A DNA stretch of 32,000 nucleotides from Ruminococcus sp. (lineage in GTDB: Bacteria; Bacillota; Clostridia; Oscillospirales; Ruminococcaceae), in NCBI GenBank assembly GCA_015066715.1, contig SVNU01000017.1:1-32000 (forward strand). The letters run 5' to 3'. Under the pieces are notes generated by a model that was not told where the DNA came from, did not search any database, and saw nothing but the letters and a program-made list of their open reading frames with translations. Shown here one piece after another: positions 18,553 through 31,729 of the stretch (positions within the stretch are counted from its first letter, which is position 1; each line of letters begins with the position of its first letter). Both the position numbers and the translations under genes were made by a program.

Positions 18553-20346
18553 ATGAAAAAAATAAAAAGAAGAACTGCGTTGCTCAGAAAAACAGTATCG
18601 GCTTTTACTTCAGCAGCTGTTATGCTGTCATTGGCAGCTTTTGTACCAATGACATCATATTCCGCCGAGGAAGTGAAGTATGAATTTGAAAACGGTTCTA
18701 CAAGTGGTGGTACTATATATGCAGAAGGCTGGAAAGGAAATACAGCCGAGGACGGAACAGGCGAGGATTTTGATATGACAAACGCTTCCGGCGGATTTTC
18801 ATATCTTGACCAGAAGGGAACAACAGTAAGTATTGATGTTACCGTGGAGGAAGCAGGTCTTTATGAGCTTACAATATGTTACTGTGAGCCTTATGACTCG
18901 AATAAAAAGGTGCAGTATCTCAATATAAACGGTGTAAATCAGGGGGAAGTAAGTTTTCAGCACAATCTGACCTTTGAAGAAACATCCGGCGGTGTTGTTA
19001 TGCTTGATGAGGGTGTAAATACCATTGAGCTTAAAGCTTACTGGGGATATACGTTCTTTGATTACCTGACAATTAAACCGGCTGATGAAAGTCTTACAAA
19101 TCTTACTCCGACCCGTCAGCTTTCAAATCCCAATGCTTCGGATTCAGCAAAGAGACTGTATAATTATCTGTGCGACCAGTACGGAAATCACATAATTTCA
19201 GGACAGCAGGAATACTGTGGTTCCCATAACTACAATCTTTACGCAGACCCGACAAATTTTATAAAGGATAATGAAGCGGAGTTTGATTATCTTATGGAGC
19301 AGACGGGAAAAATGTGTGCTATCAGAGGTATTGACTTTCTCAATTACAATTCGGGTTCCACATGGGATGACAATGCAGCGGAAAGAACAATCCAGTGGGT
19401 AAACGAATATAAGGGTATTGCAACGGTTGTATGGCATTGGAATGTTCCGTCCGAAGAAGGCGGTACTGACAGGGCGTTTTATGTTGAATCGGCAAGCGAC
19501 AAGTACACAACCTTCAGCATTACAAATGCTCTCAAAGAAGGAACATGGGAAAATGAAGTCCTCATGGCTGATATAGAAGAAATTGCAAAGCAGCTTAAAA
19601 AGCTCAGGGATGCTGATGTTCCGATTTTGTGGAGACCTCTCCATGAAGCTGAGGGCGCATGGTTCTGGTGGGGTGCGGAAGGTCCTGAACCCTGTAAGGA
19701 GCTTTACAGACTTCTTTATGACCAGCTGACTAATGTTTACGGACTTGATAATCTGATATGGACATGGAACAGCTATACTTATGCAACCTCACCGCAGTGG
19801 TATCCCGGCGATGATGTGGTTGACATTGTAGGATATGATAAGTACAATGCTGTTGACGGTCTGCCGAATTTAAGCTCCATTTCCTCTACTTTTTACAGTC
19901 TTGTTCAGAGTACCGATGGTCAGAAAATGGTTGCAATGACTGAAAATGATACTATTCCTTCACTTGAAAATCTTCTTAAAGATAAGGCATCATGGCTGTA
20001 CTTCTGTCCATGGTATATGAATTATCTTACAAGTGAACAGAATAATCCTGTTGAAAATCTCAAGGAAATCTATAACAGTGAATATTGCATTACCCTTGAT
20101 GAGCTTCCTGACCTGAAAACATATCCTATGGCTGATGAGCAGCCCACAACAGAGGAAAAGGATATTCTTGTGGGAGATGTAAATGTTGATGGCGTTGTGT
20201 CGGTGGATGATGCAGTGCTTCTTTGCAAATTCCTGACGGCACAGGCAGAACTTGATGAATTACAGGCAAAAAATGCAGAGGTTTGTCCTGATGATTTACT
20301 CAATGTATTTGATTTTATAGCATTAAAGAGAATGCTTACAGAATAA
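18553..20346 (+). CDS. Secreted GH26 beta-mannanase with N-terminal CBM35-like module and C-terminal type-I-like dockerin
   Basis: Signal peptide; YEFENGS...WGYTFFDYLTIKPA CBM; GH26 motifs RPLHEAEGAWFWWG (acid/base Glu365) and VAMTENDTIPS (nucleophile Glu464); dockerin GDVNVDGVVSVDDAVLLCKFL...NVFDFIALKRMLTE. Confidence 0.93.
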   Translation: MKKIKRRTALLRKTVSAFTSAAVMLSLAAFVPMTSYSAEEVKYEFENGSTSGGTIYAEGWKGNTAEDGTGEDFDMTNASGGFSYLDQKGTTVSIDVTVEEAGLYELTICYCEPYDSNKKVQYLNINGVNQGEVSFQHNLTFEETSGGVVMLDEGVNTIELKAYWGYTFFDYLTIKPADESLTNLTPTRQLSNPNASDSAKRLYNYLCDQYGNHIISGQQEYCGSHNYNLYADPTNFIKDNEAEFDYLMEQTGKMCAIRGIDFLNYNSGSTWDDNAAERTIQWVNEYKGIATVVWHWNVPSEEGGTDRAFYVESASDKYTTFSITNALKEGTWENEVLMADIEEIAKQLKKLRDADVPILWRPLHEAEGAWFWWGAEGPEPCKELYRLLYDQLTNVYGLDNLIWTWNSYTYATSPQWYPGDDVVDIVGYDKYNAVDGLPNLSSISSTFYSLVQSTDGQKMVAMTENDTIPSLENLLKDKASWLYFCPWYMNYLTSEQNNPVENLKEIYNSEYCITLDELPDLKTYPMADEQPTTEEKDILVGDVNVDGVVSVDDAVLLCKFLTAQAELDELQAKNAEVCPDDLLNVFDFIALKRMLTE

Positions 20347-29932: not shown

Positions 29933-29961
29933 TTGACATATTTTTGTTATTATGATAAAAT
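29933..29961 (+). promoter_or_regulatory. Promoter for the cohesin/dockerin protein
   Basis: TTGACA-N17-TAAAAT. Confidence 0.7.
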
Positions 29962-29992
29962 AAGATATGTTTTATAAAATGGAGGTTAATTA

Positions 29993-31645
29993 ATGAAAAA
30001 ATTAAACAGACTTATATCTGTTGCTGCTGTCATAGCATGTACAGCTGCTTTTTGCCGGTCTGACGGTTGGATAATGGAAACCGGCGCTGCAAGTACGCTT
30101 CAGTTTGATTATACAAAGATAGATGAAAATCCGCAGAACCAGTTTTATTATTCAGATCAGGACGAGTTTTATGTTGATGGAATAACTGTATACTATAACA
30201 ATGAAGATGTTACATCGCAAGTAAGCTTTTCCTTCAGTACAACTCCTGAAACTACATATGACGGGAAAAATATCGATTACGTAATTCCGTTTACCGCAAC
30301 ATATAACGATATATCCGTTGACGGATGCTTTGATGCTAAAATTGGTTTGCGTGGTGATGCAAACTGTGACGGTAAGGTTACTCTGAATGATCTGGTTTTA
30401 ATACAGAACGACCTTAAACAAAGCTATAATACGGGCAAATCAAGTCTTACAGCAAATGATAGCTTTGGTATTTTTCTTTCAAATGCAGACGGCAGACATG
30501 CGGATGGTGAAAACTCACCTTATGGTTCAAATCTTCTTAATGTAGGAGACGCTTTCTTTATCAGTAGCTATCTCAATGGCAAGGGAAAAGGAAGCATGTA
30601 CAATAACATACTTTTAAATAATGCTATTAAGTTAACTAAAGGTGAAATTACAGTCTCCGATTGCAATGTAAAGGCAGGAGAAATTATTAATGTTCCTGTT
30701 TCACAGGTTACAGACGGTACTCTCGGTGCATTTGAAATAACATGTGAATGGGGAGATTCCGGTTTAATTCCACTTGGTGTTGTTTCACCTAATGCAAAGG
30801 CTTCTGTTTTTTCTGTAATTAAAAACGATTCAATGAAAATTTGGGGCTTTGGGAACAATGATGCGCTTAGCAACGGTGAGTTTGTATATCTTCAGTTTCA
30901 GGTTCCGAATTCTGCTGCAAAGGGTGAAAAGTACAGTATTAATATAAGCAATATTGATTATTTCGGTACAGGAGTGGATATTTCAGATTATGTAGTTCCA
31001 AACAGTGGAACAATAACCGTATCGGAAGAAAGTGAAAATCCTGATGCAGAGAATCTTTTACCGGTGACAGATGAAGCTGTTTCCTATGATTATGCTGTAA
31101 AAGCATGGGACGCTGTCGTTGAGTACGGTTCTACTGAAGCAACTGTACCGGTGATGCTGCTTTCGGGACTTGAAACAAACGGCCTTATATTAAAGGTTCA
31201 GTGTGATGCTCCGCTTTCGATAGATAAGCTTGAAAACGCCTTGATGATAACTGAATCATCTGATGGGGGATACACTGGAGTATATGAAAGCGATACAAAT
31301 CTTCAGGTCGATTTTGAAACCCTTAACGTTAAAATTGCCGCCAATACCGCTCCGGGTACGTATCCTGTCAGGATAGCAGTTGAAAGTGTTAATGGTATGG
31401 AGGATGTGTCAGAACTCGTTGTTTTGAACGGTTCGGTAACCATTAAGGAAAAGTCAATTGTAAAGGGTGATGCGAACTGCGATAATGCTTTGACTGTAAG
31501 CGACGCTGCATACATTGCACGAACACTTGCAAAGCGTGAAACGATCGATATCGAATCAAATCCGGCCGCAGACTATAACGGTGACGGAAAGGTGACTGTT
31601 GCTGATGCAGCGGCAATTGCAAGATACCTTGCAAAACGAAAATAA
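29993..31645 (+). CDS. Secreted dockerin-cohesin-(cohesin-like)-dockerin protein, putative small scaffoldin/adaptor
   Basis: Signal-peptide-like start; internal dockerin-like GDANCDGKVTLNDLVLIQNDL...NVGDAFFISSYL (aa 121-194); cohesin-like aa 218-343; second cohesin-like aa ~367-486; C-terminal dockerin GDANCDNALTVSDAAYIARTLA...DYNGDGKVTVADAAAIARYLAKRK (aa 492-550). Confidence 0.8.
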   Translation: MKKLNRLISVAAVIACTAAFCRSDGWIMETGAASTLQFDYTKIDENPQNQFYYSDQDEFYVDGITVYYNNEDVTSQVSFSFSTTPETTYDGKNIDYVIPFTATYNDISVDGCFDAKIGLRGDANCDGKVTLNDLVLIQNDLKQSYNTGKSSLTANDSFGIFLSNADGRHADGENSPYGSNLLNVGDAFFISSYLNGKGKGSMYNNILLNNAIKLTKGEITVSDCNVKAGEIINVPVSQVTDGTLGAFEITCEWGDSGLIPLGVVSPNAKASVFSVIKNDSMKIWGFGNNDALSNGEFVYLQFQVPNSAAKGEKYSINISNIDYFGTGVDISDYVVPNSGTITVSEESENPDAENLLPVTDEAVSYDYAVKAWDAVVEYGSTEATVPVMLLSGLETNGLILKVQCDAPLSIDKLENALMITESSDGGYTGVYESDTNLQVDFETLNVKIAANTAPGTYPVRIAVESVNGMEDVSELVVLNGSVTIKEKSIVKGDANCDNALTVSDAAYIARTLAKRETIDIESNPAADYNGDGKVTVADAAAIARYLAKRK

Positions 31646-31693
31646 CCAATGTACAAACTGGTTTTTAAAGTTGAAAAATTAATTTACACGAAA

Positions 31694-31726
31694 ATGAGTC
31701 TGAAGTTTTATCAGGCTCGTTTTTTT
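31694..31726 (+). terminator. Terminator after the cohesin/dockerin gene
   Basis: GAGTCTGA...TCAGGCTC followed by GTTTTTTT. Confidence 0.7.
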
Positions 31727-31729
31727 GAA

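Follow-up and report, generated by a model that had tools for sequence, protein, structure and literature searches.

The 550-aa protein encoded at 29993..31645 on the forward strand of the window (the whole 32,000-nucleotide stretch of DNA analysed) is probably a four-valent, non-catalytic adaptor scaffoldin of the ruminococcal cell-surface attachment layer, with two dockerins of differing specificity. Its modules follow the order signal peptide, X module, dockerin with an extended insertion, cohesin 1, cohesin 2 and dockerin, and with dockerins at both ends and two cohesins between them it is probably a branching joint of the plant-fibre-degrading surface machinery and not an enzyme. By composition it is a putative adaptor scaffoldin, since cohesin and dockerin modules occur together in a single secreted-looking, non-catalytic protein. 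The initial annotation had already proposed a branching adaptor lacking a recognisable catalytic domain: a Pfam scan of the protein found no such domain, both middle modules proved to be cohesins, and the layout recurs and is kept between species, all of which agrees with that proposal, with the binding itself predicted.

The adaptor gene and its surroundings

The window is the entire contig C90 of a fragmented metagenome-assembled genome (MAG, G000; 2.66 Mb, 192 contigs, 83.5% complete) from a Ruminococcus relative of gut or rumen type, and the stop codon of the adaptor gene lies 355 bases from the contig end. The open-reading frame begins with ATG. Orthologues that span the whole protein and keep its order of modules occur in two congeners, G008 and G006, each 48% identical. 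Upstream, a sigma-70-type promoter-like site (TTGACA-17-TAAAAT with an extended -10 TG; 29933..29961, +), recognised by consensus match only (11 of 12 positions), ends 31 bases before the ATG, and a Shine-Dalgarno-like GGAGGT was read from the sequence at 29981..29986 (+). Downstream of the stop, a hairpin followed by a T run resembles a Rho-independent terminator (31689..31727, +; −17.5 kcal/mol, z −4.7), and is absent from the listing of the consensus scan. Together, promoter-like site, GGAGGT and hairpin make the gene look like a single-gene unit. A signal peptide was assigned by eye to aa 1-34 (29993..30094, +), from a charged start (MKK..R) and the hydrophobic run LISVAAVIACTAAF.

Searches with the whole protein were informative for the dockerins: Pfam Dockerin_1 matched twice (45.3 bits in total over the protein), most strongly near the C terminus at aa 491-546, a PDB search with the single sequence matched dockerins and no cohesin, and a search for relatives across the contigs of the MAG returned dockerin matches only. 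An AlphaFold model of the whole protein from its single sequence reached pLDDT 32 and was discarded as useless.

An X-dockerin at the N terminus

Residues 36-205 form an X-dockerin dyad like those of CttA and ScaB, placed here at the N terminus and not at the C terminus. The X module (aa 36-117; 30098..30343, +), assigned from the X part of a CttA-like X-dockerin encoded on contig C63 of the same MAG and from PDB matches to CttA, directly precedes a dockerin with extended insertions (aa 118-205; 30344..30607, +), assigned from an alignment of seven X-dockerin dyads (profile A3) and from Dockerin_1 and CttA matches. Residues 42-169 share 43% identity with the C-terminal X-dockerin of the C63 protein, and the best PDB matches of profile A3 are the R. 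flavefaciens CttA X-dockerin (4iu2/4iu3 and 4wkz, E 5e-4). The first Ca loop of the dockerin is canonical, and the second carries the extended insertion. In the initial annotation this region was a plain internal dockerin-like module at 30353-30574; the start was right, but the module is the second half of the dyad, and the X module, at about 30098-30343, had been overlooked, the stretch before the internal dockerin having been left blank. The recognition motifs are NDLVLIQNDL / GDAFFISSYL, against NDAAKIARDL / SDAAVLAKFL in the CttA X-dockerin of the MAG. Despite this changed motif, the N-terminal X-dockerin might bind ScaE.

Two ScaE-like cohesins

Cohesin 1 (aa 212-345; 30626..31027, +) is a ScaE-like cohesin by Pfam, orthologue score and tree. 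Its own Pfam Cohesin match is borderline, with 25.7 bits when the genome was scanned (cut-off 24.1) and 23.4 bits as protein, and its G008 orthologue scored well above this, with 39 and 34.3 bits respectively, in agreement with the cohesin-like module previously placed at 30644-31021. Cohesin 2 (aa 362-486; 31076..31450, +) gave no Pfam match above the cut-off in the protein scan. This absence could be taken to mean that the two modules in the middle merely space the dockerins as generic Ig-like domains, in a linker of which the two dockerins alone are functional, and the AlphaFold models are poor enough to suit such a reading (pLDDT 32 for the whole protein, 58 for module 2); however, the missing match is not decisive, since ruminococcal cohesins are known to escape the profiles of Pfam and InterPro (PMC11557425).

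Profile searches identify module 2 as a cohesin. A profile of the three orthologous module 2 sequences (A2) matched the cohesin of a sortase-anchored ScaE-like protein in the congener G004 (E 1.3e-9) and two modules of a G004 X-Doc/Coh/Coh/LRR/Doc protein (E 7e-11 and 5e-5). When the matched G004 modules were added (A5) and the profile was compared by hhalign with a set of twelve further cohesins from the genus (A6), the match reached 96.8% (E 2.8e-10, 122 columns), against 0.2% for the Ig-like (Big_2) modules of the MAG (A7) used as control; with the three orthologous modules alone, profile-profile comparison was weaker (61% and 34%). Similarly, a PDB search with the three-row profile gave weak matches only, and the wider A5 profile settled the identity: its four best PDB matches are cohesins of R. 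flavefaciens. A single-sequence AlphaFold model of module 2 was moderate (pLDDT 58, pTM 0.52), and when it was searched by Foldseek against 350,542 chains the two best matches were cohesins (3ul4_A and 2xdh, at low confidence), with the R. flavefaciens ScaE cohesin at ranks 4 and 9. The fold match alone would not convince, but the combined evidence is convincing that module 2 is a real, diverged cohesin. The Ig-like folds that would have spoken against the initial cohesin reading were thus not borne out by profile-profile comparison, PDB profile or Foldseek, and the spacer reading, rejected on the Big_2 control, is highly improbable. Module 2 had been described as cohesin-like and the more diverged of the two; it is indeed the more distant from the Pfam consensus, yet the better conserved when orthologues are compared (44-54% identity, against 34-37% for cohesin 1). 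The corresponding values are 49-52% for the X module, 57-65% for the first dockerin and 50-52% for the last.

In a tree of 32 cohesins from five genomes, the ScaC cohesins and the CttA-like tandem modules each formed one separate clade, and the remaining clade (support 93/87) held ScaE, the adaptors and both cohesins of the adaptor family described here; order inside it lacks resolution, so that no cohesin is singled out as nearest to these two. The MAG carries a compact sca cluster on C63, composed of a ScaC-like Coh-Doc protein, the CttA-like X-dockerin protein and a ScaE-like cohesin protein with an APKTG sortase-like signal; the ScaC cohesin lies at C63 14746-15681 and the ScaE cohesin at C63 18601-19350. 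The CttA-like protein of this cluster (L050; C63 15787-18573, +), which ends in the X-dockerin, also contains two near-identical tandem modules with weak cohesin scores and a clade of their own, candidates for cohesins or carbohydrate-binding modules.

Dockerin classes in the genome

The C-terminal dockerin (aa 490-550; 31460..31642, +) had been recognised from the start, and scores 38.6 bits against Dockerin_1. It is of a symmetric DAA.IAR type, resembling R. flavefaciens group 4 in its two symmetric repeats (SDAAYIARTLAK / ADAAAIARYLAK) with canonical D-x-N-x-D...D Ca loops, and LRR_5 proteins of the same genome carry dockerins that match it with up to 83% identity. We sorted the 84 dockerin hits of the MAG by simple motif pattern under labels of our own, a few assignments being debatable: 42 are type B (DAA.IAR), found on LRR_5 proteins, subtilases and adaptor scaffoldins, 30 are type A (NVFD..KR), on GH9, GH10, GH26 and others, five are type C (LYPL..IEF), on GH9, GH5 and others, and seven fall outside these types. 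The last dockerin of the adaptor is type B; subtilases bearing a dockerin of this type are encoded at C69 5729-9274 (−) and C100 5507-9058 (−).

In R. flavefaciens FD-1, ScaE is the partner of group-4 dockerins (those of adaptors, of a peptidase and of an LRR-Coh-Doc protein, and the ScaB/CttA X-dockerins), and ScaC is the partner of groups 3 and 6, which are carried mostly by hemicellulases (PMC5301203). The parent proteins of type B (LRR_5 proteins, subtilases, adaptors) resemble those of the ScaE-binding group 4 (PMC5301203), although most dockerins of R. flavefaciens LRR proteins had no partner on arrays and some bound ScaA/ScaB (PMC5301203). The window also encodes a GH26 + CBM35 enzyme (18553-20346, +) that ends in an asymmetric type A dockerin (20173-20337), weakly matched by Pfam Dockerin_1 at 22.7 bits. 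This dockerin is an unlikely ligand of the adaptor, because it belongs to the enzyme-type class whilst the adaptor cohesins are ScaE-like in the tree.

Covariation of recognition motifs between species

If type B dockerins and the CttA X-dockerin share a partner, their motifs are expected to change together between species. Across seven genomes, those of the CttA X-dockerin and of the LRR/adaptor dockerins do so: both carry DAA.IA in G000, G002 and G010, LYDAI/IYDAI in G001, G004 and G007, and DAS.F..YK in G009. The last of these was seen in G009 on CttA-type X-dockerins and LRR dockerins of contigs C5 and C35 (L157, L173, L204) and C1 (L174). Each X-dockerin was scored by BLOSUM against the best LRR/adaptor dockerin of each genome and the diagonal sum permuted, with the set assembled and the motifs aligned by hand from a sample of the dockerins, and G003 omitted as it had no matching-type LRR dockerin among those read. 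A diagonal sum as high was obtained in 18 of 5040 permutations (in 6 of 720 when G007 was dropped), a count that is suggestive and not a probability, since the genomes are related and hold about three distinct motif states, so that it overstates independence.

As read from their motifs, the C-terminal dockerins of the orthologues track their own genome, whilst the N-terminal X-dockerins keep a motif of their own across species. The last dockerin of the G008 orthologue scores 113 against the LRR dockerin of G008 and 63 against that of G000, and the N-terminal X-dockerins of the three species score alike (89-105). These observations bear on whether the protein is an ordinary anchored scaffoldin, in which the X-dockerin would grip ScaE at the cell surface just as those of ScaB and CttA do, dockerin-bearing cargo would dock on the cohesins, and the C-terminal dockerin would serve as a redundant second anchor for the same type of cohesin. 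The fold and insertion of the X-dockerin do match CttA, and the CttA X-dockerin covaries with dockerins of the C-terminal type; yet against the CttA X-dockerin of the MAG the N-terminal X-dockerin scores 41 and the C-terminal dockerin 66, and the N-terminal motif is conserved in three species with differing C-terminal motifs. We therefore regard an ordinary scaffoldin as unlikely.

Proposed function

In the branching adaptor that we favour, the C-terminal dockerin would join a cohesin of ScaE type, which may be the sortase-anchored ScaE itself or a ScaE-like module in a sister adaptor. A second, different cohesin would receive the N-terminal X-dockerin, as suggested by recognition residues that are unlike those of the CttA X-dockerin and kept in the orthologues. 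The two cohesins would take surface-class dockerins, such as those of LRR proteins, subtilases and other adaptors, and not the dockerins of glycoside hydrolases. The result would be a four-way joint that branches or cross-links surface-bound complexes. As the MAG is 83% complete, partners of the adaptor may be missing from it.

More tentatively, the N-terminal X-dockerin could represent a new cohesin-dockerin specificity, the adaptor being a cross-linking node between two recognition systems that possibly polymerises with sister Doc-Coh-Doc adaptors. On that reading the two systems would be separate because the N-terminal motif was kept across species while the ScaE-class dockerins drifted. 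Self-assembly is a related idea: a dockerin of one adaptor molecule would bind a cohesin in a second molecule, or in a sister Doc-Coh-Doc adaptor, and so build chains or networks on the surface. Dockerins and ScaE-like cohesins do share proteins here, several Doc-Coh-Doc proteins occur in one genome, and the dockerin of R. flavefaciens ScaH recognised its own cohesin (PMC5301203); the sole precedent comes, however, from another species, and we consider self-assembly rather improbable.

Relation to known scaffoldins

Like CttA, ScaB and RflaF_05439 of R. flavefaciens, the adaptor fuses an X module to a dockerin with an extended insertion. The X-dockerins of these proteins bind the sortase-anchored ScaE cohesin (PMC3573020, PMC5301203); they are C-terminal and the sole dockerin of their protein, whereas that of the adaptor is N-terminal, has another recognition motif and is accompanied by a second dockerin at the opposite end. 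The adaptor likewise resembles the R. flavefaciens adaptors ScaH and ScaF (Coh-Doc), ScaI (LRR-Coh-Doc) and ScaJ (Coh-Coh-Doc) (PMC5301203) in being a non-catalytic cohesin protein with a dockerin, and the dockerins of ScaH, ScaF and ScaI bind ScaE (PMC5301203 Table 1); but these proteins have a single dockerin and no X-dockerin, whereas the adaptor has both an X-dockerin and a second dockerin. More than one dockerin per protein is a feature shared with the double- and multiple-dockerin proteins of Clostridium thermocellum and others, the two dockerins of which possibly serve different cohesins (PMC12484212, section 3.2); these are described with a protease or no partner domain (PMC12484212), whereas the adaptor has cohesins between its dockerins. 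Monovalent and polyvalent adaptor scaffoldins combine cohesin and dockerin and thereby switch type or extend the complex (PMC11557425), and two dockerins of different type fall outside these definitions, which comprise a dockerin and cohesins. Each part of the adaptor is thus of a known kind, and the combination is new relative to PMC3573020, PMC5301203, PMC12484212 and PMC11557425. We found no description of a dockerin-cohesin-dockerin (Doc-Coh-Doc) protein in the openly licensed papers searched, and an earlier description elsewhere is possible.

Depictions of ruminococcal cellulosomes show trees in which each scaffoldin has a single dockerin. Dockerins of two classes flanking cohesins would permit cross-links, loops and branches, and such adaptors would lend themselves to use in designer cellulosomes. 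That the CttA X-dockerin varies from species to species along with LRR and adaptor dockerins also points to a simple route for assigning partners to the dockerins of LRR proteins, mostly partnerless on published arrays.

Recurrence of the layout

Proteins with an X-dockerin, one or more cohesins and a dockerin occur in 5 of 11 genomes of the genus, and this recurrence marks an architecture class. The layout was found on contigs C14 and C86 of G000, C41 of G002, C66 of G004 and C94 of G006; G002 C412 encodes an X-dockerin and two cohesins, the part read stopping short of the protein end. The module 2 profile matched at E < 1e-4 in this genus only, among 299 genomes sampled from the family. The layout had initially been called unusual; it is not unique, as several proteins of the MAG flank cohesins with dockerins. 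Plain adaptors are encoded at C141 20330-21286 (+), a Doc-Coh-Doc protein of 318 aa, and at C86 25164-27650 (−), a Doc-Coh-(Big_2)-Coh-(Big_2)-Doc protein of 828 aa.

Two further arrangements were seen alongside these. A 1209-aa protein of G000 (L052; C86 29358-32987, −) combines three dockerins with two cohesins, Big_2 modules and an LRR_5 region, and the X-dockerin profile matches its N-terminal part as well. In three species a multi-cohesin/dockerin protein adjoins a rubrerythrin-like gene (G000 C178 32576-33901, −; G008 C377 956-2716, −; G006 C19, L155 1775-3073), and its cohesins form their own clade (100/100).
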